From: an uncultured Ruminococcus sp.
GTDB lineage: Bacteria; Bacillota; Clostridia; Oscillospirales; Ruminococcaceae
DNA length: 11,127 nucleotides
Assembly: GCA_946537565.1 (NCBI GenBank)
Contig: CAMNFW010000052.1
Location: 1 to 11,127, forward strand
Direction: 5' to 3'
Each line of letters begins with the position of its first letter. Position 1 is the stretch's first letter. The notes under the pieces were generated by a model that was not told where the DNA came from, did not search any database, and saw only the letters and a list, made by a program, of their open reading frames with translations. Made by a program: the position numbers and the translations under genes. Shown in pieces: positions 1 through 11,127 of this stretch.

Positions 1-23
1 TTTTATAATAATAAAACAAAGAC

Positions 24-266
24 TTATTCAGCAGAGTTGAGAAGCTTAGCGAGCTGAGACTTCTTTCTTGCAGCCTTGTTCTTATGGATAAGACCATGAG
101 CGCAAGCCTGGTCAACCTTCTTGATAGCAACCTTTACAGCCTCTGGAGACTTCTCAGCGTTAGCGTTCTTGAGAACAGTCTTGAGGTTAGTCTTTCTTGC
201 CTTGTTTGAAGCAGCCTTTGTAGCGTTAACCTTAACTCTCTTCTTAGCAGATTTAATGTTTGGCAT
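24..266 (-). CDS. rpsT: 30S ribosomal protein S20
   Basis: This encodes an 80-residue, very Lys/Ala/Arg-rich protein beginning MPNIKSAKKRVKVNATKAA and ending KLLNSAE, the typical sequence and length of bacterial S20. S20 is a primary binder of 16S rRNA in small-subunit assembly. An ATG further upstream (at 335) would add 23 residues that do not resemble S20. The chosen ATG at 264-266 is preceded by a full AAGGAGGT ribosome binding site (276-283 on this strand), which fixes the start. It diverges from gpr, a common clostridial arrangement, and is driven by the strong promoter at 394-422, leaving a leader of about 120 nt with a hairpin. No terminator is visible in the 23 bases after the stop codon. 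Identification is very secure. Confidence 0.98.
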   Translation of the reverse strand: MPNIKSAKKRVKVNATKAASNKARKTNLKTVLKNANAEKSPEAVKVAIKKVDQACAHGLIHKNKAARKKSQLAKLLNSAE

Positions 267-353
267 TCTGTTTACACCTCCTTGTAACAGCGCCGGGTAT
301 AAAAACCGGACAGCTTGCAGATAATAGAAGCGCATACGGGTTTACACGCTTCC

Positions 354-376
354 GGCAGATGCAACGCACATCTGCC
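354..376 (-). other. hairpin in the rpsT 5' leader
   Basis: A perfect 8-bp inverted repeat, GGCAGATG (354-361) and CATCTGCC (369-376), flanks a 7-nt loop. It lies about 10-30 nt after the predicted rpsT transcription start. No T-run follows it on the minus strand, so it is not an intrinsic terminator. It could stabilise the 5' end of the mRNA or take part in regulation; neither can be decided from sequence. Confidence 0.5.
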
Positions 377-393
377 ATACTGAGACAATGATA

Positions 394-422
394 ATTATAG
401 CATTTTTTGCTGAATTTTTCAA
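394..422 (-). promoter_or_regulatory. sigma-A promoter of rpsT with extended -10
   Basis: Read on the minus strand, there is TTGAAA (417-422), a spacer of exactly 17 nt, and TATAAT (394-399). The bases TGC sit directly before the -10 box, so it is an extended -10 promoter. Transcription would start near 387 and give a leader of about 120 nt before the rpsT ATG. The near-perfect match fits a highly expressed ribosomal protein gene. Confidence 0.85.
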
Positions 423-446
423 TAGGCAAAACTGAAATATTCTGCT

Positions 447-476
447 GAATTTTTTGTGTGGATTTAAAGCATTATG
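447..476 (+). promoter_or_regulatory. candidate sigma-G-type promoter of gpr
   Basis: GAATT (447-451), exactly 18 nt, then CATTATG (470-476) matches the Bacillus forespore sigma-G consensus GMATR-N18-CATNHTA at all but one base in each box. Known gpr genes are expressed in the forespore under sigma-F/sigma-G, so the site makes biological sense. It would start transcription near 483, leaving about 11 nt of leader that just includes the GGAGG at 485-489. The short leader and the two mismatches keep this tentative. No convincing sigma-A promoter was seen on the plus strand here. Confidence 0.35.
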
Positions 477-494
477 CACAACATGGAGGGAAAT

Positions 495-1343
495 ATGAAT
501 ATCAGGACTGATCTTGCATTGGAGCAGATATCTGGCGGTGAGCTGCCGGAGGGTGTACACATAGCTGAAAGGGGCAGGAGTTTTAATATTACCGAGATAG
601 TTATAGACAATGACAGCTGTGCTGAGATGATTGGCAGGGGAAAGGGCAGGTATATAACCCTTGAGGGCGGAAGTCTGAGCCGTTTTTCTGATGATTATGA
701 GGACATGGCGCAGGAGCTGGCACAGGAGCTGAAAAGGCTTATACCTGAGGGTGATATACTGGTGGTCGGACTGGGGAACAGAGATATAACTCCCGATGCG
801 GTAGGTCCGCAGACGGCTGAAAAGGTTCTTGCTACAAGACATTTGCAGAATGAGCTGAATGAAGAGGAGGAAAGCTTTCTGACATCGCTGCGCAGGGTAA
901 GCACCTTTGCCGGTGGAGTAATGGGTCAGACCGGGATAGAGACAGCGGAAATAGTCCGTGGGATAATCCATGAGACAGACCCGTCTGGTATAATCGTTGT
1001 AGATGCACTTGCCTGTTCGGATATAAGCAGGCTGGGAACAACAATTCAGCTGACAGATACAGGCATATCGCCGGGCAGCGGAGTTTCAAACGCAAGAAAG
1101 GAGCTGTCGGAGAAGGAGCTTGGTGTGCCGGTTATTGCAGCCGGAGTGCCGACGGTGGTGGATATGCACACGATTGTCCGCAGTCTGACGGGACAGGACA
1201 TTGATAGTGAACTGCCAAACATGATGGTAACTCCGAGAGATATTGATCGTCTTACAGAACGTACTTCACAGCTTTTAGCCTTTGGGATAAATCTTGCGCT
1301 CCAGCCTGGATTGAGCTATAGTGATGTTATGGGATTGTTCTGA
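495..1343 (+). CDS. gpr: GPR endopeptidase, spore germination protease
   Basis: GPR is an unusual aspartic-type protease made as a zymogen in the developing spore. At germination it degrades the small acid-soluble proteins that coat spore DNA. The 282-residue product shows the family landmarks in order: IRTDLALE near the N-terminus, GRYITLEGG, VVGLGNRDITPDAVGP with Asp101, TRHL, GGVMGQTGIET, VVDALA with Asp170, TTIQLTDTGISPGSGVSN, LGVPVIAAGVPTVVD and a C-terminal MVTPRDID. Asp101 and Asp170 align with the two catalytic aspartates of the Bacillus enzyme (Asp127 and Asp193). The start is ATG 495, which has GGAGG 5 nt upstream; an in-frame ATG at 474 has no such site. Compared with Bacillus GPR (about 370 aa), a stretch of roughly 75 residues between GVPTVVD and MVTP is nearly absent. 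The usual downstream partner spoIIP is not present. Confidence 0.95.
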   Translation: MNIRTDLALEQISGGELPEGVHIAERGRSFNITEIVIDNDSCAEMIGRGKGRYITLEGGSLSRFSDDYEDMAQELAQELKRLIPEGDILVVGLGNRDITPDAVGPQTAEKVLATRHLQNELNEEEESFLTSLRRVSTFAGGVMGQTGIETAEIVRGIIHETDPSGIIVVDALACSDISRLGTTIQLTDTGISPGSGVSNARKELSEKELGVPVIAAGVPTVVDMHTIVRSLTGQDIDSELPNMMVTPRDIDRLTERTSQLLAFGINLALQPGLSYSDVMGLF

Positions 1344-1421
1344 GCGAGCCTGCACAGCTGCGAACGGCTGATGATATTGATAAAGATGCAGCTGTAAAAA
1401 AGAATGGGCAGTATAAATTAT
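1344..1421. other. convergent spacer with inverted repeat
   Basis: This short gap lies between the convergent ends of gpr and the cysteine-cluster gene. It contains an 8-bp inverted repeat, ACAGCTGC (1354-1361) and GCAGCTGT (1388-1395), with a 26-nt loop. The run after it on the plus strand is A-rich rather than T-rich, and no T-run follows on the minus strand, so it does not meet the rules for an intrinsic terminator in either direction. A loose structure protecting the two 3' ends remains possible. Confidence 0.4.
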
Positions 1422-1895
1422 TTATCTTAAGAGCAGCACCGGATAGCCTTCATAGTAAGGCTTTATAATTTCCGGGTGAGAGTCAGCATAGGTGAAAATT
1501 TCATCGGCAAGACCTTCTTTCAGCAGACCTGTAAGCTGAGACAGCGGACGTTCAAAAAGCTCCTTGCAGTCAGAAGCCAGTGCAATTACCTGTCTGTTTC
1601 CGAGACTCATTATGCGGTAGGGGAAAATACGGCAGACAAATGGCTTTTCATCACCGAGGATACAGCCGTTTTCAGACAGCGCCGGACAGGTGAAGGTCTG
1701 TTCATCGGACAGCTTATCGGGTTTGAAAACAAAGCCGCCCTCACAGGAAATGAAGGCAGTGCCGGGTCTGGCGGCGGTGATCTTTCTGCACATATCAGCT
1801 GAGAAAACCGGAGTTTCCCAGAGGTCATACAGATCGAATATACAGCAAAGCCTGCAATTGGAGCAGGCTTTTTTTGACAGTATTTTATTCAGCAT
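1422..1895 (-). CDS. YkgJ-type cysteine-cluster protein
   Basis: This is a 157-residue protein with an N-terminal CSNCRLCC (Cys11, Cys14, Cys17, Cys18). More cysteines follow at 36, 51, 70, 78 and 88, the last within the motif FVCRIFPYR, and at 110. The CxxCxxCC start followed by a C-P...C...CRxFP block is the signature of the YkgJ family (zinc- or iron-chelating domain, Pfam PF03692). Family members are thought to bind a metal or Fe-S cluster, but their biochemical role is mostly unknown. No signal peptide or membrane segment is seen, so it should be cytoplasmic. Its ATG lies inside the 3' end of tetR (7-nt overlap), with a weak AGGGA ribosome binding site at 1904-1908 on the minus strand. 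It is therefore probably translationally coupled to the repressor and under its control. Family call is firm; function is not. Confidence 0.85.
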   Translation of the reverse strand: MLNKILSKKACSNCRLCCIFDLYDLWETPVFSADMCRKITAARPGTAFISCEGGFVFKPDKLSDEQTFTCPALSENGCILGDEKPFVCRIFPYRIMSLGNRQVIALASDCKELFERPLSQLTGLLKEGLADEIFTYADSHPEIIKPYYEGYPVLLLR

Positions 1896-2548
1896 ATTTT
1901 TTGTCCCTGATCGTTGGAAGAAATCTCATTTGAGGCGGCTTTCAGCTCACCTCTGTGCTGGTCGATAATAAGGCGGATAGCGTTGTAAAGATAGGGTTTG
2001 AGAGTATCAAGACCGCAGGGTTCGCTGTAGAGAATAGCGGAGTAGCAGGTGGAAGAGACCAGCTCGATTATCATGAAGAGCATTATTTCCGGCTCCTTGA
2101 ATTCATAGGGAGCTTCGTTCAGCATATCGGAATAGACCTTGCGGAAGTCGATATCGTCCTCAGTATTCTTATTGAATATAGCGTTCTTGAAGATGCCCCA
2201 GCTGAGGTTTTTGGAAATAAAATTAAGAAGGACTTTATCCTTGCTGAACTGGTCGATTATATTATCCAGGAGCTTCATAAGCTTGTCCTCGAAGGAAAGC
2301 TTATTTTTTTCGGCTTCAACAGACTGGGCAGCGGTGCGGAATATCTGGCTTGCCTTGTGATAGATGAGTTTGTTGCGGATATCGTATTTATCCTTGAAGT
2401 AAAGATAAAAGGTACCTTTAGCAACCCCAGCCTTGCTGACGATTTCAGAGATTGAGGTTTTGCTGAAGCCTTTGGTGGTGAAGAATTCAAAGGCGGTTTT
2501 AAGAAGGGAATTTTCCTTCTGTTTTTTATTGATATCAATTTTTCTCAT
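1889..2548 (-). CDS. TetR/AcrR-family transcriptional repressor
   Basis: A 219-residue protein with a textbook TetR DNA-binding head. Residues about 14-60 form the three-helix HTH, including TSISEIVSKAGVAKGTFYLYF with the recognition helix near 43-51. The rest (about 65-215) is helical and variable, as expected for a ligand-binding and dimerisation domain; the ligand cannot be predicted. The start ATG (2546-2548) has AAAGAGG at 2557-2563, 8 nt away. It diverges from the MMPL transporter, the classic layout of a TetR regulator controlling an efflux gene. Three TGAC-N5-GTCA palindromes lie in the shared spacer and are the likely binding sites, so it probably represses both itself and the transporter operon until a substrate releases it. 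The minus-strand partner downstream overlaps it by 7 nt. Confidence 0.93.
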   Translation of the reverse strand: MRKIDINKKQKENSLLKTAFEFFTTKGFSKTSISEIVSKAGVAKGTFYLYFKDKYDIRNKLIYHKASQIFRTAAQSVEAEKNKLSFEDKLMKLLDNIIDQFSKDKVLLNFISKNLSWGIFKNAIFNKNTEDDIDFRKVYSDMLNEAPYEFKEPEIMLFMIIELVSSTCYSAILYSEPCGLDTLKPYLYNAIRLIIDQHRGELKAASNEISSNDQGQKIC

Positions 2549-2590
2549 AAAATAACCTCTTTACGGCAAATATCGGGATAGGCTAATACT

Positions 2591-2619
2591 ATTATACGTT
2601 ATAACAGACCCAGTGTCAA
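2591..2619 (-). promoter_or_regulatory. consensus sigma-A promoter of tetR
   Basis: On the minus strand there is a perfect TTGACA (2614-2619), a 17-nt spacer and a perfect TATAAT (2591-2596). Transcription would start near 2584, giving a leader of about 35 nt with AAAGAGG just before the tetR ATG. So strong a promoter for a repressor gene implies that it is normally held down by autoregulation. A palindrome, TTATA-CGT-TATAA (2592-2604), overlaps the -10 box. Confidence 0.85.
2606..2618. promoter_or_regulatory. degenerate fourth operator over the tetR -35 box
   Basis: AGAC-N5-GTCA differs by one base from the TGAC-N5-GTCA repeat found three times further on. It overlaps the tetR -35 box. Because any TTGACA box contains half of the motif, only the AGAC half is independent evidence. 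Confidence 0.4.
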
Positions 2620-2628
2620 TAGCAAAAA

Positions 2629-2645
2629 AATGACTATTAGTCATT
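2629..2645. promoter_or_regulatory. TetR operator O1, 17-bp palindrome
   Basis: AATGACTA-T-TAGTCATT is a perfect inverted repeat with 8-bp arms and a single central base, and contains TGAC-N5-GTCA (2631-2643). It lies 10 bp upstream of the tetR -35 box and between the two divergent promoters. It is the best-conserved member of the operator set. Its centre (2637) is 53 bp from O2. Confidence 0.75.
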
Positions 2646-2683
2646 AAAACTGAGAGGAAGAATTGTGCAGGTCTACAAAAATA

Positions 2684-2696
2684 TGACCAGAGGTCA
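2684..2696. promoter_or_regulatory. TetR operator O2
   Basis: TGACC-AGA-GGTCA is an inverted repeat with 5-bp arms that contains the shared core TGAC-N5-GTCA. It lies about 20 bp upstream of the transporter -35 box. Its centre (2690) is 53 bp from O1 and 33 bp from O3, close to five and three helical turns, so all three sites face roughly the same side of the DNA. Confidence 0.7.
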
Positions 2697-2715
2697 GAAA
2701 TTTTCAAAAAAGATA

Positions 2716-2744
2716 TTGACTATCGGTCATTTTTAGAATATACT
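2716..2744 (+). promoter_or_regulatory. sigma-A promoter of the MMPL/heptad operon
   Basis: TTGACT (2716-2721), a 17-nt spacer and TATACT (2739-2744) form a near-consensus promoter. The predicted start near 2751 gives a leader of about 45 nt ending in the GGGGGA ribosome binding site at 2784-2789. Operator O3 overlaps the -35 box. No second promoter is evident in the 51 nt before the next gene, so both genes are probably transcribed from here. Confidence 0.82.
2717..2729. promoter_or_regulatory. TetR operator O3 over the transporter -35 box
   Basis: TGAC-TATCG-GTCA repeats the same core as O1 and O2. It covers most of the -35 hexamer (2716-2721) of the transporter promoter, so a bound repressor would block RNA polymerase directly. 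Confidence 0.7.
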
Positions 2745-2795
2745 AATATACAGCAAATAAAGAATTATTACCATATTGAATAAGGGGGAAGAAAT

Positions 2796-4922
2796 ATGTT
2801 GAGGTTCGGTGAGTTTATCGCTAAGCATAAAGTGCTGATACTGCTGATAGGAATACTTCTTATTATCCCGTCCGGCATCGGTTATCTCAACACAAGAGTC
2901 AATTACGATATCCTGTCTTATCTGCCAAAGGATATAAATACTATGGTCGGTCAGGATATACTCAAAGATGAATTCGGTCAGGGCGGCTTTTCACTGGTCA
3001 TGGTGGAAGGAATGAGCCCGAAGGAAATTAAGGAAACGGCAGATAAAATATCTGAGGTGGAACACGTTTCAAGTGTCCTGTGCTACGATTCGCTGACGGA
3101 TATGAATATCCCGAAGGAAGTCCTTCCGAAAAAAGTCTTCGATTTTTTCAACAAGGACGACACAACTATGATGGCTGTGTTTTTCGATGACACCACATCC
3201 GCTGACGGTACCCTTGCTGCTATTGATACAATGAGGGAAATTACCGGCGAACAGTGCTTTATCAGCGGTATGTCCGCAATTACCGACGATATGAAGCACC
3301 TTTCAGACAGCGAGTCGATAATCTATGCTGTCATCGCTGTTATACTTACTTGCATTGTACTGGTCATTGCAATGGATTCATTCCTGATACCGGTTTTCTT
3401 CATGCTAAGCATAGGACTGGCGATAGTATGGAATTTAGGTTCAAATTTCCTCATGGGAGAGATATCATTCCTGACCCAGGCACTGGCATTGGTATTGCAG
3501 CTGGGTGTTACAATGGACTATTCCATTTTTCTCTGGCACAGCTATAAGGAACAGCTTGAAATTTACCCGACAGATAAAAATGAAGCAATGGCACACGCAA
3601 TTGCTAATACCATAGTTTCTGTTGTAAGCAGCTCCTTTACAACGGTTGCCGGCTTCCTTGCAATGTGCTTCATGAGCTTTACACTTGGACTTGACCTGGG
3701 AATAGTAATGGCAAAGGGAGTTGTGTGCGGCGTTATCGCCTGCGTAACAGTGCTTCCGGCAATGATCCTCATCTTCGAGAAGGCTATCACTAAAACCTCT
3801 CACAGAGATTTCATGCCAGGCTTCAAAAAGACCTCTTCGTTTATTGTTAAACACTGCGGCATCTTTCTTACAGCTGCAATTGTCCTGCTGATCCCTGCCG
3901 TTTACGGATATCAAAACTATGATGTTTACTATAAGCTGGACAGCACCCTTCCGGCGGACCTGGAAAGCGTTATCGCAAATACTAAGCTGAATGAGGATTT
4001 CAATATGCCCAGCACTCATATTCTCCTTGTCAGGTCTGATATGCCGGCTAAGGACGCTAAGGATATGATGAACGAAATGGAAGGCGTGGACGGTGTACAG
4101 TTTGCAGCCGGTTTCAATACACTGGTTGGCAGTGCGATTCCGGAGGAGGTAATTCCGGATTCTGTAAAGAGCATACTCAAAGGCGATGAATGGCAGATAA
4201 TGCTTATCGGTTCGGAGTATGAGGTCGCTTCTGACGAGGTAAACGAGCAGGTGGCTGCTCTTAATAAGATAGTTCAGAAGTACGATGAAAACGGTATGCT
4301 GATCGGTGAAGCTCCGGCTACCAAAGACCTTATCGAGATCACTGACCGTGACTTCAAGGTGGTAAGCATACTTTCTATAGCTGCAATTTTCCTTATCATA
4401 GCTATTACCTTCAAGTCGATATCACTGCCGGTAATACTTGTTGCAGTTATCGAGCTGGCAATAATGATTAATATCGGCATAGCTTATTTCATGGGAACTG
4501 AACTGCCCTTCATAGCTTCTGTGGTAGTCGGTACTATCCAGCTGGGCGCAACCGTTGACTATGCGATTCTTATGACCACAAGATACCGTGCAGAAAGATA
4601 CTCCGGCAAGGATAAAAAAGAAGCCGTCAGCATCGCTCTCAGTACATCAGTAAAATCTGTTATAACCTCAGCATTGGGATTTTTTGCGGCAACAGTAGGC
4701 GTTGCGGTATATTCTGAGATAGGTCTTATCTCATCGCTCTGTGTTCTGCTTTCGAGAGGCGCTCTTATCTCAATGGTGATAGTAATAACCGTGCTGCCTT
4801 CAATGTTCATGGTCTTCGACAGCCTTATCTGCAAGACCAGTGCAGGCTTCCTTCCAAAAGACCAGCACAGTAATAAGAATAACATGAATCAGCAGCCGAA
4901 GATCAGCCTTGCAAAAGGGTGA
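2796..4922 (+). CDS. MMPL/RND-family membrane transporter
   Basis: A 708-residue, twice-repeated membrane protein of the MMPL branch of the RND superfamily, which uses the proton gradient to move lipids or other amphiphiles. Each half has one membrane helix (about 13-31 and 355-373), an extracellular domain of about 140 residues (32-172 and 376-520), then five clustered helices (about 174-330 and 522-680). The hallmark motifs are LGVTMDYSIF with Asp241 and LGATVDYAIL with Asp588, at equivalent places in the two halves and matching the proton-relay aspartates of MMPL proteins. The ATG has GGGGGA 6 nt upstream. It follows a TetR-controlled divergent promoter and precedes the heptad-repeat protein by 51 nt, implying one operon. 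Many Firmicute MMPL proteins carry Leu/Gly heptads within a loop; this one has none. Substrate unknown; antimicrobial efflux or envelope lipid export are both plausible. Confidence 0.92.
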   Translation: MLRFGEFIAKHKVLILLIGILLIIPSGIGYLNTRVNYDILSYLPKDINTMVGQDILKDEFGQGGFSLVMVEGMSPKEIKETADKISEVEHVSSVLCYDSLTDMNIPKEVLPKKVFDFFNKDDTTMMAVFFDDTTSADGTLAAIDTMREITGEQCFISGMSAITDDMKHLSDSESIIYAVIAVILTCIVLVIAMDSFLIPVFFMLSIGLAIVWNLGSNFLMGEISFLTQALALVLQLGVTMDYSIFLWHSYKEQLEIYPTDKNEAMAHAIANTIVSVVSSSFTTVAGFLAMCFMSFTLGLDLGIVMAKGVVCGVIACVTVLPAMILIFEKAITKTSHRDFMPGFKKTSSFIVKHCGIFLTAAIVLLIPAVYGYQNYDVYYKLDSTLPADLESVIANTKLNEDFNMPSTHILLVRSDMPAKDAKDMMNEMEGVDGVQFAAGFNTLVGSAIPEEVIPDSVKSILKGDEWQIMLIGSEYEVASDEVNEQVAALNKIVQKYDENGMLIGEAPATKDLIEITDRDFKVVSILSIAAIFLIIAITFKSISLPVILVAVIELAIMINIGIAYFMGTELPFIASVVVGTIQLGATVDYAILMTTRYRAERYSGKDKKEAVSIALSTSVKSVITSALGFFAATVGVAVYSEIGLISSLCVLLSRGALISMVIVITVLPSMFMVFDSLICKTSAGFLPKDQHSNKNNMNQQPKISLAKG

Positions 4923-4973
4923 AGCTTAATTCGGAATGCGAAATTATAAATTAATATAGGGGGAGAGACATTT

Positions 4974-7859
4974 ATGAAAAATTATCAGAGAATTTTAGCA
5001 GGAGTTGTGGCAGCAGCTTGTTCAGCAGCAGCTACAGGTTCTATCGCATATGCAAAGAATAATAAAAATAATAATCAGGAGAGGACTGCTGTCAGTGTAA
5101 AGGGCGAAAGTGAAAAGGCTCCCCGTAAGGCTGCCCAGGGTAAAGCCAATAAGAATGAGACTGTGTATGTCCTCTGCAATAACGATTCATCGGTTAGGAA
5201 TGTGGTGGTCAGCGACTGGCTGAAAAATACCGGTGCTGCTTCTTCACTGGAGGATGTCTCTGATCTTGCGGATATCGTCAATGTCAAGGGCGATGAAGTG
5301 TTCTCCCAGTCCGGCGATGAGCTTAACTGGAGCGCTGGCGGCAGCGATATCTACTATCAGGGCACCACAGACAAGGAGTTGCCTGTTGATGTCACTATGA
5401 CCTATTACCTGGACGGCACCCAGATTTCTCCAGAAGCTCTTAAGGGCAAAAGCGGTCATGTTACTATCCGCTGGGATTATTCCAATAAGCTCAAAACTAC
5501 TAAGCTCATCGGCGGTGAACAGAAAGAGATATACGTTCCCTTCCTTACTGCCAGTGCTGCTGTTTTAGATACGAGTAAATTCCTCAACGTTGAAGCTGTC
5601 AACGGAAAAATTATCTCTGACGGCGAAAGAATAATCGCTGTCGGTGCAGCATTCCCAGGACTTACTGAAAGTCTTGGTCTTGGTGAAAATAAGGATATCG
5701 ACTTTGAGCTGCCGGAGTATTTTGAGATATCAGCTGATGTTACAGACTTTGAAATGGGTACATCAGTGACAGTTGTCTCTAACGAGATCTTCTCAAAGCT
5801 TGATATCGACGAAAATATGTCCTTTGACGATCTTACCGATAAGCTCACTGAACTCAGTGACGGTGCTAAAAAGCTCCAGGACGGTGCTGCTCAGCTGTAT
5901 GACGGTATTTCTACTCTCAGCAGCAAGTCCGGCGATCTCACTGAGGGCGTTGACAAGCTGAAAAACGGCGCAAAACAGCTCAGTGACGGTGCCGGTCAGT
6001 TAAGCTCAGGTTCAGCTCAGCTGACTGACGGCGCAAAATCTCTTGCAGATGGTGCAGCTGCCCTCAATGACGGTGCTAAGTCTGCAAAGGACGGTTCAAA
6101 ACAGCTCGCTGACGGTATCAGTGAGGCTGGAGCAGGTTCGGCAGAGCTTTCAAAGGGTGCAGATGAACTCAATAACGGCGCAGCAGATCTTGCCGAGGGC
6201 ATAAAGTCTGCTAAGGAAGGTTCAGATGAACTGGTCAAGGGCTATGAACAGGTTGATCAGGGTACAGCAGCTCTCAGTGAGGGTTCAGCTTCATTCAGCT
6301 CAGGTATTGCAGCTCTGGCTGACGGTGCAGCACAGGTGGATTCCGGTGCAGCACAGCTGTCTGAAAATATGACAGCGTTTGCTTCCGGAGCTTCACGGCT
6401 CAGCGAATCTGCCGATACCCTTTCAAAAGGAATCACCTCAGCTAAAAATGGTGCAGATGCTGTCAGCAGCGGTTTAAACTCCGCTAAGGCTGGTGCAGAT
6501 GAACTTGCTGCCGGTGCAGGTCAGCTTTCACAGGGTGCAGCTGAACTTTCAGCCGGTATGGATTCTGCAAAAGCAGGTGCAGATGCAGTCAGTGAGGGTA
6601 TAAACTCCGCAAAGACTGGTGCAGATACTCTTACAGCCGGCGCTCAGCAGCTTACAGAAGGTGCAGGCGAGCTTGAAGCTGGTCTTGTATATGCCGGTGC
6701 AAATCTTGATACCACTATCGCAGCAAATGAACAGGCTCTTGCAGCTTTACAGGCTGTATATGCTCAGTCTCCTTCCGAGGAGCTGGCTGCCGCTATTGGT
6801 ACTCTTCAGCAGACTATCGACGCTCAGAAACAGATCGCTCAGAGTATGGAAGAGGGCGGTCAGCTCAATAACGGCGCTGCTGCCATTTCAGCTGGCGCTC
6901 AGCAGCTTACAGGCGGTCTTGGTCAGCTTTCAGAGGGACTTTCCGCAGCTCAGACCGGTACTGATTCTCTCAGCCAGGGCATGACCTCACTCAATGACGG
7001 TGCGGCAGCTCTTTCAGCAGGCGCTCAGGATCTGGACGGCGGACTTGGACAGCTTTCAGCAGGCCTTGAAGCAGCACAGAACGGTACTGCTGATTTATAT
7101 AAAGGCATGATCGAACTTGACGAAGGCGGACAGCAGCTGGCTGCCGGTGCAGGACAGCTTTCAGATTATTCCGTGCTTCTCTCACAGGGTGCAGCTTCAC
7201 TTTCCGGCGGTGCATCACAGCTCAACGCAGGCGTTGGAACACTTTCAGCCGGAAGCACTGATCTTGTCGGCGGACTTGATACTCTTATCGCCGGCATAAA
7301 TCGACTTTCCGCAGGAAATCTCGCCCTCAACGGCGGTCTCGGTCAGCTTTACACAGGCTCGTTTACATTAACTGACGGCACTGCACAGCTGGCAGCCGGC
7401 GCACAGGCTCTTAACGGCGGTTTCGGTCAGCTTACTGCTGGCTCAGCTGCACTGGATAACGGTATTGCTCAGCTTTACAGCGGCAGCGGTCAGTTGTCCG
7501 GCGGTGCAGATACGCTTTATAAATCTCTCGTAACTTTCAAGACCGGTGCAGCTTCTCTCAGCAGCGGTGCAGATGAACTTTACACAGGCATCGGCACGCT
7601 CAGTGACGGTGCGGTCGCACTTATTGACGGTGTAGGACAGCTTCGTGACGGTGCTGAGCAGCTCAGCGGAGGCATGATAAAATTCAATGACGAAGGAATC
7701 AGCAGGATAACCGCTGCGGCTGACGAGCTTCTTCCCGGAATCACCGACCGCCTTAACGCTATCCGTGAGGCTTCTCAGGAGTACACCACCTATTCCGGAA
7801 AATCTGATGATATGGACGGCAGTGTCAGGTTCATTTATATGTTTGACGGAACAGATTGA
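4974..7859 (+). CDS. secreted Leu/Gly heptad-repeat rod protein
   Basis: A 961-residue exported protein. Residues 1-27 form a signal sequence with a hydrophobic core and an AYA cleavage site before KNN. Residues about 60-285 look like a globular, beta-rich domain. Residues about 287-902 are mostly xxxLxxG heptads (for example LSDGAKKLQDGAAQLYDG), with one break at about 570-625 made of Ala/Gln-rich helix-like sequence. The last 60 residues are non-repetitive, with no C-terminal membrane helix or LPXTG motif. This heptad is a recognised pattern (TIGR03057) found inside MMPL transporters and YhgE/Pip/EsaA-type surface proteins. Here it is a free-standing protein in the transporter operon. AGGGGGAG at 4958-4965 is its ribosome binding site. 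I infer an extracellular rod working with the MMPL pump, perhaps reaching through the cell wall. It could instead be an independent surface protein. Confidence 0.88.
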   Translation: MKNYQRILAGVVAAACSAAATGSIAYAKNNKNNNQERTAVSVKGESEKAPRKAAQGKANKNETVYVLCNNDSSVRNVVVSDWLKNTGAASSLEDVSDLADIVNVKGDEVFSQSGDELNWSAGGSDIYYQGTTDKELPVDVTMTYYLDGTQISPEALKGKSGHVTIRWDYSNKLKTTKLIGGEQKEIYVPFLTASAAVLDTSKFLNVEAVNGKIISDGERIIAVGAAFPGLTESLGLGENKDIDFELPEYFEISADVTDFEMGTSVTVVSNEIFSKLDIDENMSFDDLTDKLTELSDGAKKLQDGAAQLYDGISTLSSKSGDLTEGVDKLKNGAKQLSDGAGQLSSGSAQLTDGAKSLADGAAALNDGAKSAKDGSKQLADGISEAGAGSAELSKGADELNNGAADLAEGIKSAKEGSDELVKGYEQVDQGTAALSEGSASFSSGIAALADGAAQVDSGAAQLSENMTAFASGASRLSESADTLSKGITSAKNGADAVSSGLNSAKAGADELAAGAGQLSQGAAELSAGMDSAKAGADAVSEGINSAKTGADTLTAGAQQLTEGAGELEAGLVYAGANLDTTIAANEQALAALQAVYAQSPSEELAAAIGTLQQTIDAQKQIAQSMEEGGQLNNGAAAISAGAQQLTGGLGQLSEGLSAAQTGTDSLSQGMTSLNDGAAALSAGAQDLDGGLGQLSAGLEAAQNGTADLYKGMIELDEGGQQLAAGAGQLSDYSVLLSQGAASLSGGASQLNAGVGTLSAGSTDLVGGLDTLIAGINRLSAGNLALNGGLGQLYTGSFTLTDGTAQLAAGAQALNGGFGQLTAGSAALDNGIAQLYSGSGQLSGGADTLYKSLVTFKTGAASLSSGADELYTGIGTLSDGAVALIDGVGQLRDGAEQLSGGMIKFNDEGISRITAAADELLPGITDRLNAIREASQEYTTYSGKSDDMDGSVRFIYMFDGTD
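6438..6689 (+). repeat. two tandem 126-bp units in the heptad gene (pair 1)
   Basis: Codons 489-530 and 531-572 are two adjacent 42-residue units, each six heptads long. The first starts SAKNGADAVSSG and the second SAKAGADAVSEG, and they match along most of their length. This points to duplication of a block of six heptads and not of single heptads. Confidence 0.8.
6864..7115 (+). repeat. two tandem 126-bp units in the heptad gene (pair 2)
   Basis: Codons 631-672 and 673-714 form a second pair of 42-residue units, beginning LNNGAAAISAG and LNDGAAALSAG. They have the same six-heptad period as pair 1 but a different sequence, so they arose as a separate duplication. The pair lies just after the non-heptad break. 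Confidence 0.8.
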
Positions 7860-7879
7860 AATTGACAATCACATAACAG

Positions 7880-7910
7880 CGTCCGCAGTGTTTTCACTTA
7901 CAGCCGGACG
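7880..7910 (+). other. nested inverted repeat after the heptad gene
   Basis: CGTCCG (7880-7885) and CGGACG (7905-7910) enclose a second small hairpin, AGTG-TTTT-CACT (7887-7898). No T-run follows, so it is not itself a terminator. It may be a 3' structure of the operon transcript ahead of the real terminator at 7955. Confidence 0.4.
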
Positions 7911-7954
7911 GTATATATAGATCAAGCTATCTCCTTCTCCTTATATCAATACCA

Positions 7955-7994
7955 GCGAAACTGTCTCAGAAATGGGGCAGTTTTCGCATTTTTT
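7955..7994 (+). terminator. intrinsic terminator of the MMPL/heptad operon
   Basis: A long stem pairs GCGAAACTGTCTC with GGGGCAGTTTTCGC, with a one-base bulge and wobble pairs and a short loop. It is followed by six T residues (7989-7994). It lies about 95 nt after the heptad-protein stop codon and is the only good terminator between it and the cellulase gene. Confidence 0.85.
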
Positions 7995-8211
7995 CAGGTC
8001 TGTTCAAGATAACAGGAGCTGAGGATTTGCCGCCGGAGGGACTGTATATTTTATGTGCCGGTCAACGCTGAATTAAAATTAATTCACAGTAAATTAATAT
8101 TTGCGGTCTGACAGCAAAATTTGAAATAGCAATTAAGTACAAAAAAGCAATATAGTCATTGTGTGGTCTTCACAAATAATTTTGTCAATTGTATAAAATT
8201 AAAGATTTCCG
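7995..8211. other. AT-rich upstream region of the cellulase with two inverted repeats
   Basis: No gene is visible here. Two AT-rich inverted repeats stand out. The first is ATTAATT-N7-AATTAAT (8078-8098). The second is TAATTTT-N11-AAAATTA (8177-8201), whose spacer contains CAATTG and which ends 10 bp before the cellulase -35 box. Their position suggests possible regulator sites, but AT-rich DNA produces such repeats by chance, so this is tentative. Confidence 0.35.
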
Positions 8212-8240
8212 TTGACATTCTGTTCATTTTGTGTTACATT
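8212..8240 (+). promoter_or_regulatory. sigma-A promoter of the cellulase gene
   Basis: A perfect TTGACA (8212-8217), a 17-nt spacer and TACATT (8235-8240) with TGT directly before it form an extended -10 promoter. The predicted start near 8247 gives a leader of only about 29 nt containing AAGGAG at 8260-8265. The weaker -10 box leaves room for activation. Confidence 0.75.
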
Positions 8241-8275
8241 ATTAGTAACAATATTTATAAAGGAGTATGATAACC

Positions 8276-10738
8276 ATGAAAAAATTTAACAAGGCATTTT
8301 CCCTCTTGACTGCCTCTGTCATGGCATCGGGAATCTGCGCCGCAAACATCAGCAGCTTAGGCACTGCTGATGCTGCTTCTTCCTCAGCTGTAGCACTGGT
8401 TGAGGCTATGGGTCAGGGTTGGAATTTAGGCAACACCTTCGACAGCACCAATACCTGGACTAAACCGCTGACTCCAGAGGCTATCGAAACTGCCTGGGGC
8501 AACCCCGTTACCACCGAGGCTATGATCAAGGAGATCAAAAAGAGCGGCTTCAAGACTGTCCGCATCCCGATCACCTGGTATCAGATGATGTCCGACAGCG
8601 GCGTTCCCAATGAAGAGTGGCTGGCAAGAATCAAGCAGGTCGTTGATTACTGTATTGATAACGATATGTACGCTATCATCAACACCCACCACGATGAGGC
8701 TAATGCCGGCGGCTGGATAAACGGCACGGGCGTTTCCACTAAGTTCGCTACACTCTGGAAGAATATCGCTGAGTATTTCAAGGACTATGACCAGCACCTG
8801 GTATTCGAGGGCATGAACGAAGAGGATCTTGACAATGCCACAATGATGAGCCTCAATCAGACCTTCGTTGATACCGTTAGAGCTACCGGCGGCAATAATG
8901 CTAACCGTCTGCTTCTTGTTGAAGCTCAGGCTAACAACACTGACAAGGCTCTCGACAGCAGCTTCTCTGCTCCTAACGACAGCGCAAATATGCTGGCTGT
9001 TTCTGTTCATTACTATGAGCCTTCAACCTTCTGCGTTGCTAAGCTCAACAGCAACTGGGGTCATCAGGAAACCTGGGGCACTGCTTCTGATATCACTAAG
9101 ATGCAGAACCACCTCGACAGCCTCCAGAAAAAATTCATCGACAACGGCATCGGTGTTATCATCGGTGAGTACGGCGTTGACACCTCTTCTGCCGGCGGCA
9201 AGGATGACGCTTCTATGAAGAAGTTCCTTAAGGAAGTTTCAAACTATGCTCTCAGCAAGGACGGTATGTGTCCTGTTCTCTGGGATATGTCCGTAAAGAC
9301 CGGCACTAACGGCGGCGAAGGTGATATGTATTACTTCAACAGAAATACCCTTGAATGGTATGACCCTGAGATCAAGGAGATCTTCATTAACAATGACGGT
9401 TCTGTTGATACCTCCGGCAAGACCGACCGTGTAACTTTCAGCGCTGCTGATATTCAGAAAATCGACGAGAAGAGCGGCAAGCCTTACTATTATATTGACC
9501 TTTCTCCTTATAAAGAGTTTGACGTTAATCTTTCCTCTGCCGTTGTAAAGTTCAGCATGACTGCTTCCGGCAGCACCGAGGCAAGCGGCGATATCGCCTG
9601 CAGCTTCAATGTTAACGGAAATGACGAAAATCTTTATTATTCAAATATCGACACAGCTGTCGGTATCAATGATACCAGCGCAACTATCGACCTCTCCGGT
9701 GCCGAGCCCTTCAATGTTGAATGGGATAAGACCGGCGCTGTTACTAAAACTGTCGATGGTAAGATAGATATGGACTACCTTAAGTTCGAGAACTGGTGGA
9801 CATGGGCAAACAATGGCGACGCTTCTGTTGATTTCGACAGCGTTACTATCATCTTCGACGGCTATGTTACAAGCGATATCGCAGACGTTACAACTACTAC
9901 AAAGAATGTTACTACTACCACCACTGCTACTACCACTAAGACTCCTGTTACTACAACTACTACTGTTTCTACAGAAGAGGGTCAGACTACTACCACCACT
10001 GAGTATGTAAACTTTGAGGGCGTTCTCGGAAACGCTTTCGTAGCTGGTCAGATGGGCGGCTACAAGCACTTCAAGCTGGCTGATATGACTGAGGAAGACG
10101 GCGTTGTTGCAGCTGTTGACGGTGACGGTCAGTATGAAGCTTCATGGACAATAACCGGTGACGGTACAGGCTCTATCGAGTTCCTGGTTCTCCAGATAGA
10201 TCCTACTGAGGAGTTCGACAATCCTTTCACTACAGACGCATTCCCCGATCTTACACTTACTGTTGACAAGATCTATGTTGACGGAAAAGAGATCGCTTTC
10301 ACACAGAATGATGCCGCTTATAACCTCAGATACTATGAGAGCGGAATCGCTTCTTCAAGAGCTTACCTCAGAACTAACTGGGGCGTAAATGACGGTGTTG
10401 ACCTGGGTGTTGAGCCTGAGACAACTGTTATGAGCGAGATCAAGGTTCTCTTTACTGTTGGCGGTACAAACAGAGAAGGTACTTCTAATGTAACTCCTGT
10501 TGACGATAAGACTGTTTACGGTGATGCTAACCTGGACGGCAAGGTTACAGTTGCTGATGCAGTTGCTATTCTCCAGCACGTTGCACTTAAGGATAAGTAC
10601 GGTCTCGTTGATGAGGCTCTTAACAACGCTGACGTATACAGCAGAGGCGACGGTGTTACAGCTATGGACGCACTTTCTATCCAGAAGCTTGATGCCGGTG
10701 TTATCAAGTCACTTCCAGAGTCAGTACAGGCTTCATAA
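8276..10738 (+). CDS. cellulosomal GH5 endoglucanase with dockerin
   Basis: An 820-residue secreted enzyme. Residues 1-33 are a signal peptide. Residues about 38-375 are a GH5 barrel, most like subfamily 4, with GWNLGNTFD, TAWGNP, VRIPITW (Arg96), NTHHDE (His138), FEGMNEE with acid/base Glu182, HYYEP (His245), IIGEYG with nucleophile Glu298, and LWDMS (Trp336). It should cleave beta-1,4-glucan or a related hemicellulose. Residues 385-533 form an unassigned beta-rich module. Residues 539-576 are a Thr-rich linker. Residues 577-742 form a second unassigned beta-rich module; either may bind carbohydrate. Residues 748-820 are a type I dockerin, with a canonical calcium loop at 750-761 and an altered one at 786-798, for docking onto a cellulosome cohesin. 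ATG 8276 was chosen because ATG 8267 lies 1 nt from AAGGAG, too close to use. It has its own promoter and terminator. Confidence 0.94.
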   Translation: MKKFNKAFSLLTASVMASGICAANISSLGTADAASSSAVALVEAMGQGWNLGNTFDSTNTWTKPLTPEAIETAWGNPVTTEAMIKEIKKSGFKTVRIPITWYQMMSDSGVPNEEWLARIKQVVDYCIDNDMYAIINTHHDEANAGGWINGTGVSTKFATLWKNIAEYFKDYDQHLVFEGMNEEDLDNATMMSLNQTFVDTVRATGGNNANRLLLVEAQANNTDKALDSSFSAPNDSANMLAVSVHYYEPSTFCVAKLNSNWGHQETWGTASDITKMQNHLDSLQKKFIDNGIGVIIGEYGVDTSSAGGKDDASMKKFLKEVSNYALSKDGMCPVLWDMSVKTGTNGGEGDMYYFNRNTLEWYDPEIKEIFINNDGSVDTSGKTDRVTFSAADIQKIDEKSGKPYYYIDLSPYKEFDVNLSSAVVKFSMTASGSTEASGDIACSFNVNGNDENLYYSNIDTAVGINDTSATIDLSGAEPFNVEWDKTGAVTKTVDGKIDMDYLKFENWWTWANNGDASVDFDSVTIIFDGYVTSDIADVTTTTKNVTTTTTATTTKTPVTTTTTVSTEEGQTTTTTEYVNFEGVLGNAFVAGQMGGYKHFKLADMTEEDGVVAAVDGDGQYEASWTITGDGTGSIEFLVLQIDPTEEFDNPFTTDAFPDLTLTVDKIYVDGKEIAFTQNDAAYNLRYYESGIASSRAYLRTNWGVNDGVDLGVEPETTVMSEIKVLFTVGGTNREGTSNVTPVDDKTVYGDANLDGKVTVADAVAILQHVALKDKYGLVDEALNNADVYSRGDGVTAMDALSIQKLDAGVIKSLPESVQAS
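9890..10000 (+). repeat. ACT/ACC-rich microsatellite encoding the Thr linker
   Basis: Codons 539-575 are mainly threonine codons ACT, ACA and ACC in tracts of three to five, broken by a few Lys, Val, Pro, Ser, Glu and Gln codons. They encode the flexible linker between the two accessory modules of the cellulase. Such tracts are prone to slippage, so length may vary between strains. Confidence 0.85.
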
Positions 10739-10750
10739 AACATGAAAATA

Positions 10751-10784
10751 ATGGGCACTGATGTATGTCAGTGTCCATTTTTTT
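10751..10784 (+). terminator. intrinsic terminator of the cellulase gene
   Basis: ATGGGCACTG pairs with CAGTGTCCAT around an 8-nt loop, with one G-U pair, and is followed by seven T residues (10778-10784). It begins 12 nt after the cellulase stop codon. It makes the cellulase a single-gene transcription unit. Confidence 0.92.
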
Positions 10785-10818
10785 GTTTAGCCGTCAGCTG
10801 TCAGCTTTGGGCATAATT

Positions 10819-10843
10819 TGTCAGTGTCCGTAGTTTACACTGA
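10819..10843. other. second hairpin sharing the terminator arm sequence
   Basis: The 11-mer TGTCAGTGTCC from the terminator (10766-10776) recurs at 10819-10829. Here TCAGTGT (10821-10827) can pair with ACACTGA (10837-10843). No T-run follows. It ends about 18 bp upstream of the next promoter and may be a remnant of a duplicated terminator or a regulator site. A tandem GTCAGCT repeat lies just before it (10793-10806). Confidence 0.4.
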
Positions 10844-10861
10844 ACTTTCATTTGTATATCA

Positions 10862-10890
10862 TTGACTTTTGCGAAATAAGAATGTATAAT
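10862..10890 (+). promoter_or_regulatory. sigma-A promoter of the zinc-ribbon gene
   Basis: TTGACT (10862-10867), a 17-nt spacer and a perfect TATAAT (10885-10890). Transcription would begin near 10897, just upstream of AAGGGAGG (10906-10913). An in-frame ATG at 10901 would then have almost no leader, which supports the TTG start at 10922. Confidence 0.85.
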
Positions 10891-10921
10891 GAAAATAGAA
10901 ATGATAAGGGAGGCAGATAGA

Positions 10922-11127
10922 TTGTATTGTATAGCTTGTGGAAAACAGATAGACAGCGACGCAGTTTATTGCAATCACTGCGGTTTCAAACAGACTGATG
11001 ATTTAAGCACCTTTACTCCGCCCCTTGAGCCTGAAGCTCAGCAGGAAAACGATATTTTTGCCGCTGAGAAACTGAATGAGCAAAAACCAGAAACTCAGCA
11101 GGAAAATGATATTTTTGCCGCTGAGAA
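10922..11127 (+). CDS. zinc-ribbon protein, 3' end outside window
   Basis: The first 68 codons of a gene that runs off the window. The protein begins MYCIACGKQ, with cysteines at 3, 6, 17 and 20 in two CxxCG knuckles, the double-CxxC zinc ribbon often found at the N-terminus of Firmicute membrane or regulatory proteins. From about residue 38 it becomes acidic and Gln-rich and contains a 19-residue repeat with the core QQENDIFAAE. The start is a TTG at 10922, 8 nt after the strong site AAGGGAGG. The only in-frame ATG (10901) has no ribosome binding site and would put that sequence inside the coding region. A membrane or other functional domain may lie beyond the window. The zinc ribbon is secure; the role is unknown. 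Confidence 0.8.
   Translation, partial: MYCIACGKQIDSDAVYCNHCGFKQTDDLSTFTPPLEPEAQQENDIFAAEKLNEQKPETQQENDIFAAE
11037..11127 (+). repeat. 57-bp in-frame repeat in the zinc-ribbon gene
   Basis: A 57-bp (19-codon) period starts at 11037 and again at 11094. The first 34 bases of the two copies, beginning CTCAGCAGGAAAA, differ at one position. The second copy is cut by the window end, so the total number of copies is unknown. Confidence 0.85.

Follow-up and report, generated by a model that had tools for sequence, protein, structure and literature searches.

The nearest architectural analogue of the locus described here appears to be the MmpS/MmpL pair of mycobacteria (MmpS5L5, MmpS4L4), and the nearest regulatory analogue appears to be FarR/FarE of Staphylococcus aureus. 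The locus lies in an 11,127-nucleotide stretch of DNA from an uncultured Ruminococcus sp. (assembly GCA_946537565.1, contig CAMNFW010000052.1, positions 1 to 11,127), which we refer to in full as the window. It consists of a gene for an MMPL/RND pump of 708 residues (2796..4922, plus strand; open reading frame, PF03176 and predicted structure) and, directly downstream, a gene for a secreted 961-residue partner (4974..7859, plus strand; open reading frame, TIGR03057 and predicted structure). This partner, or rod, is predicted to combine a β-sandwich head with a long hairpin of xxxLxxG heptads. The two genes form a widespread, conserved two-part unit.

The available part of one report gives the hairpins (PD3) of MmpL5 as 125 Å long and forming a trimeric channel (PMC12346298), and that of another describes a methionine-lined lumen and a requirement of the helical hairpin for MmpS5L5 efflux (PMC12501195); in both, the β domain of MmpS sits on MmpL. 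In MmpL5 the hairpin is within the pump and measures about 12.5–13 nm (same sources), whereas the window locus has it on the partner, with a predicted length of about 47–50 nm. The second extracellular domain of the window pump (residues 375–504) has no insertion and therefore no MmpL4/5-type hairpin. MmpS has a membrane helix, whereas the window partner has a signal peptide. The predicted head does provide an extracytoplasmic β domain, although the fold matches listed for it are mu-homology domains, and any likeness to MmpS would be that of having a β domain. No MmpS model was among the Pfam or NCBIfam matches of the rod up to E 0.1, nor did Pfam, NCBIfam or a search of solved structures reveal any sequence relation between MmpS and the partner.

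In the FarR/FarE system, as here, a TetR-family gene is divergent from an MMPL/RND pump gene. The available parts of two accounts call FarE a fatty acid efflux pump and report about 10-fold more excreted phospholipid for a strain with elevated farE than for its parent or farE deletion strains (PMC8844917, PMC10019231). FarE was not expressed without FarR, unlike what control by a plain repressor would give (PMC10019231, available part). What is accessible of both accounts mentions no secreted heptad partner for FarE, whereas the window pump has one.

Helical heptad proteins of other kinds were also compared. Chemoreceptors (MCPs) share with the rod family symmetric heptad insertions and deletions around a conserved hairpin tip, but the window rod is extracytoplasmic and has LxxG heptads and another tip; the MCP signalling domain PF00015 was not among its Pfam matches up to E 0.1. 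Like the rod, YhgE/Pip and EsaA proteins carry xxxLxxG heptads, in their case between membrane parts. However, YhgE/Pip-type proteins have membrane helices at both ends, one N-terminal and several C-terminal, whereas the rod has none after its signal peptide and bears a different head. In an NCBIfam scan, YhgE/Pip and EsaA models gave zero matches on the rod, while the YhgE/Pip N- and C-terminal models each matched 7 of 7 control proteins of that type; the EsaA N-terminal model stayed under its cut-off in all seven. We did not find an earlier description of a pump–rod pair among the entries listed by searches of the open-access literature.

The pump and its conserved partnership

The pump matches PF03176 with 188.2 bits (cut-off 20.5) in two stretches, one in each half. 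Its AlphaFold2 (AF2) model (mean pLDDT 82.3) has 12 transmembrane (TM) helices by manual count and two compact extracellular domains of about 125–130 residues (33–158 and 375–504) after TM1 and TM7, neither with a long insertion. In an alignment of 16 sequences (A2), Asp241 of TM4 is invariant and the adjacent Tyr242 nearly so (3516..3521, plus strand), and Asp588-Tyr589 of TM10 (4557..4562, plus strand) are both invariant; we take the two pairs to be the proton-relay pairs of MMPL pumps. The pump protein is a complete RND pump by itself. The original prediction, made from the window sequence, described this pump with two compact, heptad-free extracellular domains at exact coordinates, and the predicted structure agrees; its term "split" is misleading, since the pump is complete.

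How constant is the pairing? The pump gene lies directly upstream of the rod gene in 77 of 80 loci from public genomes. Two exceptions are at contig ends (L060, L086), and the third is a true orphan (L077). Of 391 genomes sampled from the class to which the window belongs, 100 contain the rod, and 96 of 101 rod matches have a pump directly upstream, with 68–392 nt between the matched regions (thresholds of our choosing: rod E 1e-10, pump E 1e-60). Of the five exceptions, G039 is in fact paired, having a pump fragment directly upstream of its rod (L166). Two unpaired rods begin at a contig end (G316, G162) and another sits 330 nt from one (G214). The one clear case of a truly unlinked rod in these genomes is G295; its rod and pump genes stand at separate places (L152, L153), each near a TetR-like gene.

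For pumps scoring at least 430 bits, 94 of 104 are paired with a rod; the other 10 comprise six with a diverged partner, one with a broken partner gene (G003), one at a contig end (G214) and two without a neighboring partner (G120, G295). Below 430 bits only 2 of 22 pump matches are paired. In 47 loci with full flanks, the pump is present in all 47, tetR in 29, a GH5 cellulase gene in 5, the gene for a CxxCxxCC protein in 2, and gpr and rpsT in none. The conserved unit is therefore the pump–rod pair and not the wider neighborhood, as expected from the proposal of a two-gene unit with a separate exported partner, and the genome search suggested with it, for a heptad-free MMPL gene adjoining a signal-peptide heptad gene, finds the pairing recurring. 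In the window's own genome, the pump is the sole MMPL gene (by sequence reading, a third PF03176 match is a SecD/SecF pair) and the rod gene the only one matching TIGR03057. Elsewhere, one locus (L210, G300:C14) holds a pump fragment (435 aa) directly followed by a partner fragment (230 aa), while its genome keeps an intact pair at another place; pump and partner genes apparently decayed jointly here. Two long open frames that suggested pump–rod fusions (1508 aa in G315, 1514 aa in G206) proved to be separate genes.

Heptads alone do not mark a pump partner. Among 249 genomes of the phylum, 27 have xxxLxxG matches: 12 in this rod family, 14 in a YhgE/Pip-type membrane protein and one in a cis-heptad MMPL pump only (G483), in keeping with the original statement that heptads in other Firmicutes lie inside an MMPL loop or in YhgE/EsaA-like membrane proteins. 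Three of the 14 (G412, G455, G604) also have a cis-heptad MMPL pump. Seven YhgE/Pip-type proteins were recognized by the models mentioned above, and the remaining seven genomes were assigned from the helix pattern alone. In all 12 genomes that have it, the rod family adjoins an MMPL gene, compared with 0 of 14 for the YhgE/Pip-type genes (about 2.9–4.2 kb inspected on either side), whose products have zero matches to the head of the window rod. Thus, an MMPL neighbor is predicted by this head and not by heptads alone: heptad homologs that regularly lack such a neighbor, named in the original prediction as its refutation, are seen for the YhgE/Pip type but not for the head-bearing family. The cis-heptad pumps of other Firmicutes have about 1030–1060 residues (L191 at 1052-4231, L192, L193 and L226 at 248-3424); in the first three the heptads lie between TM7 and TM8. 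L191 ends in an SLBB domain. In another locus (L189, G400:C95), weak xxxLxxG matches fall in two chemoreceptor-like genes; the repeat model can thus also respond to MCP-like helices.

The six diverged partners mentioned above were missed by the head profile, and five of them are nearly devoid of LxxG heptads. Nonetheless, in profile comparison with the window head, the head of these five gave a probability of 96.8 (E 2e-10, 181 columns), the sixth partner 95.2 (E 3e-8, 114 columns), and the diverged partners together with four profile-found ones 99.5. By eye, all ten partners in this enlarged alignment end in an amphipathic-looking helix of the FWxRLLxLFG type. It is the head and not the heptads that goes with the pump, and some partners retain the head while losing the heptads. 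In a distant MMPL subfamily (about 770–850 aa; L194–L209, e.g. L199:622-6589), a different exported protein is encoded next in 14 of 16 cases. It has about 1060–1200 residues where complete, is once split in two frames, and in 12 cases shows a TM helix close to where the available sequence ends; of eight scanned for the GLUG motif, five scored over the cut-off, two below it and one had none. This protein is a third kind of pump partner, and an exported companion thus seems necessary for these MMPL pumps.

Architecture of the partner protein

The partner starts with a signal peptide (residues 1–27; 4974..5054, plus strand; AYA ahead of the cut, by eye), whose hydrophobic stretch (7–25) is the only one in the protein; there is no TM helix past it and no LPxTG-like motif. 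Lipoprotein anchoring was considered and rejected, as Cys16 lies outside any convincing lipobox (by eye). A lipobox pattern is present in 10 of 200 rod relatives and was judged clear in three.

The best-conserved part of the protein (majority fraction 0.67, alignment A1) is a predicted β-sandwich head at residues 58–275 (5145..5798, plus strand), modeled with pLDDT of about 90 over most of its length. The C-terminal strand, residues 947–957 (7812..7844, plus strand), is predicted by AF2 to be part of the head, and the head fold matches span model residues 45–959. The head fold matches listed for the rod model are mu-homology domains; EsaA, Pip and MmpS are absent among the fold matches listed, which excludes nothing. 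Neither a Pfam nor an NCBIfam family was found for the head, and no solved structure was related to it by sequence at E up to 1. A phmmer search with the whole rod returned four weak matches, mostly coiled coil. A homology search with the head alone (residues 28–290) yielded 6434 homologs from 7994 scored candidates, so the head-bearing family is large. Among named relatives, those closest to the rod are from Ruminococcus, and some homologs carry the name "putative membrane protein" in one source.

The region between the two head segments matches TIGR03057 (xxxLxxG) with 205.7 bits in 21 stretches. Residues 291–925 contain 68 [LIVMF]xxG sites, of which 49 neighboring pairs are spaced by exactly 7, far above chance given that shuffling the same residues 500 times gave a mean of 0.6 such pairs and a maximum of 4. 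The heptad pattern, length covariation and AF2 model together delineate an outgoing helical arm (residues 285–598; 5826..6767) and a returning one (602–936; 6777..7781), joined at a tip region (576–625; 6699..6848; all plus strand) that is conserved in relatives' alignments as NEQALAAL...SPSEEL...GTLQQTI. Among rods of 27 length classes, outgoing and returning arms lengthen and shorten jointly, mostly by whole heptads (r = 0.998; 130 of 200 sequences were set aside for a tip score under 70 or a missing anchor). On the basis of this joint change around the tip we reject a single long rod or a parallel coiled coil, and the AF2 model agrees with an antiparallel hairpin inserted in the β-sandwich head. 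Sequence and model thus concur on what we consider a new observation, namely that the heptads are predicted to form an antiparallel hairpin set into the head. The hairpin would be about 47–50 nm long, about half of what a 600-residue single helix would give, because the heptads make up its two arms. The original prediction of a 961-residue exported heptad protein is upheld in coordinates, signal peptide and TIGR03057 repeats, but its rod length has to be revised.

Relative to the window rod, the hairpins of other family members would range in length from about 26 nm less to 19 nm more, differing mostly by whole heptads in both arms. Partners of the Lachnospiraceae type have a center without LxxG; they were not counted as a symmetric-arm case, the arms being about 87 and 84 residues in L075, L083 and L093 and irregular in others. 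In the AF2 model of the rod there are also two breaks of low confidence at symmetric positions on either side of the tip (6276-6308, residues 435–445; 7236-7268, residues 755–765), which may be a hinge or an artefact of modeling.

Regulation and surroundings of the locus

A TetR-family regulator gene (1889..2548, minus strand; PF00440, 51.3 bits) is divergent from the pump gene. The 247-bp region between them contains three 13-bp operator-like palindromes of the consensus TGACYnnnRGTCA: TGACTATTAGTCA (2631..2643), TGACCAGAGGTCA (2684..2696) and TGACTATCGGTCA (2717..2729), the last overlapping the −35 element of a promoter-like site for the operon (2716..2744, plus strand; 10/12 consensus). A promoter-like site for tetR (2591..2619, minus strand) matches at 12/12 positions with a 17-nt spacer; both are consensus matches only. 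The tetR homolog was detected by tblastn in 41 of 80 loci, and by profile search 55 of 71 have a TetR-like gene no more than 1.5 kb from the pair, divergent upstream in 42 of these. The same palindrome occurs in 2–5 copies in 40 of 40 tetR–pump intergenic regions of relatives with a divergent tetR by tblastn, which supports the original idea of co-regulation. At least two palindromes precede the pump in 40 of the 71 loci having enough upstream sequence, so other clades would be controlled in another way. A wider TetR regulon, with targets beyond this locus, was also considered and rejected: the window genome has 9 palindrome sites versus 10 in a reversed control, and the 6 outside the locus are all inside predicted open frames. 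Therefore, the TetR protein appears to be local to this pump–rod unit.

The pump and rod genes are 51 nt apart, with no terminator-like site in the gap. A terminator-like stem-loop with a T-run at 7957..7984 (plus strand) is a possible operon end, although weak taken alone, as the scanned region has 6 such sites versus 5.2 expected. An Rfam scan of the window at gathering scores gave zero matches. The other window genes are rpsT (24-335, minus strand), gpr (474-1343), the CxxCxxCC protein gene (1422-1895, minus strand; 17.8 bits, under the cut-off of 23) and a GH5 cellulase gene identified with Pfam (8267-10738), preceded by a promoter-like site at 8212-8240. The dockerin-like C-terminus of the cellulase scores 17.3 bits, below the 22.9 cut-off; it is perhaps a cellulosome enzyme. 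A GH5 homolog is close to the pair in just 7 of 80 loci.

A predicted export machine and its rivals

Pair conservation, common operator-like sites, hairpin geometry and the predicted head fold were computed directly. They are most readily assembled into one export machine, a reading to which we give moderate confidence: a proton-driven pump with a secreted accessory subunit, its head at the membrane and its hairpin directed outward, under TetR repression. The MMPL protein would act as a proton-driven RND pump in the membrane, and the second protein, exported via its signal peptide, as an extracytoplasmic accessory subunit. Its N-terminal region and last strand would fold into the β-sandwich head, from which the whole heptad region would leave as a single antiparallel hairpin with the conserved tip at the far end. 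We infer that the head lies beside or on the extracellular domains of the pump, by analogy with the β domain of MmpS locked onto MmpL. The head end is likely the membrane end, as the termini meet there, clear lipoboxes in three of 200 relatives would tether it to the membrane, and the diverged partners carry an amphipathic helix at this end. The hairpin, possibly bundled with others, would then reach into or through the peptidoglycan wall as a spacer and scaffold. The TetR protein presumably represses both genes and would release them in response to a small compound, probably a lipophilic one. By analogy with FarR/FarE (PMC8844917, available part), a fatty acid or phospholipid would be our guess for the cargo or inducer.

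A more far-reaching version seems doubtful to us. It would make the locus a widespread wall-spanning RND machine of gut Gram-positive bacteria, in which an MmpS-like adaptor and an MmpL5-like needle are united in one secreted protein acting in trans, an adjustable-length hairpin gauges the wall and leads lipophilic cargo across it, and heptad-free or GLUG-headed partners do the same job in cousins.

The original prediction proposed that the rod acts as a wall-spanning conduit, scaffold or receptor; of these, we consider the conduit unlikely. In such a scheme, three or more hairpins bundled on a trimeric pump would form a tunnel through the wall, resembling that proposed for the MmpL5 needle but built from a separate protein and with three- to fourfold its length. 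It could draw on the antiparallel hairpin of MmpL5 PD3 (PMC12346298, available part) and on the existence of cis-heptad pumps (L191, L192, L193, L226), whose heptads in the first three lie between TM7 and TM8, on the loop side of PD3. However, one LxxG hairpin alone encloses no lumen, so a lipophilic tunnel would need several, and composition does not support one. Each arm uses hydrophobic residues at a and e and Gly at d as its hairpin packing face, whereas the outward positions are mainly polar: the hydrophobic fraction is 0.00–0.05 at b, c, f and g of the outgoing arm and 0.28 at b, 0.21 at f and 0.02 at c and g of the returning arm. Five Met occur in both arms, compared with the Met-lined lumen described for MmpL5 (PMC12501195, available part). 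These features point to a spacer or scaffold rather than to a lipid tunnel. Some partners also share this head and lack heptads.

Similarly improbable is a substrate carrier or wall organizer, in which the head binds the exported compound, or the rod holds the pump in the wall, with no fixed complex. Compared with a free carrier, a ruler or spacer better accounts for the joint growth and shrinkage of the arms, mostly by whole heptads and with head and tip conserved.

Some Pip proteins are phage receptors. Least probable is that pump and rod are separate envelope-stress proteins under one TetR, the rod serving at the surface, as an adhesin or phage receptor, with no export role: such a role would suit heptads shared with YhgE/Pip-type proteins that lack an MMPL neighbor in 14 of 14 cases, but these proteins do not match the head, the head family is beside an MMPL gene in every genome of the same sample that has it, and even the distant MMPL subfamily is mostly followed by an exported protein.

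The export machine with a spacer-like hairpin thus remains our preferred reading. Its parts are ordinary, but their combination, a widespread and conserved two-part export unit with an unusual partner, is not. In diderms, RND pumps work with adaptors and outer-membrane channels. How single-membrane bacteria use such pumps is little known, and their role in Gram-positive pathogens has been called undocumented (PMC10019231, available part). The symmetric-heptad test offers a simple, sequence-only way to recognize hairpin rods, and a dedicated exported partner turns the use of RND pumps in single-membrane bacteria into a tractable single-gene question.
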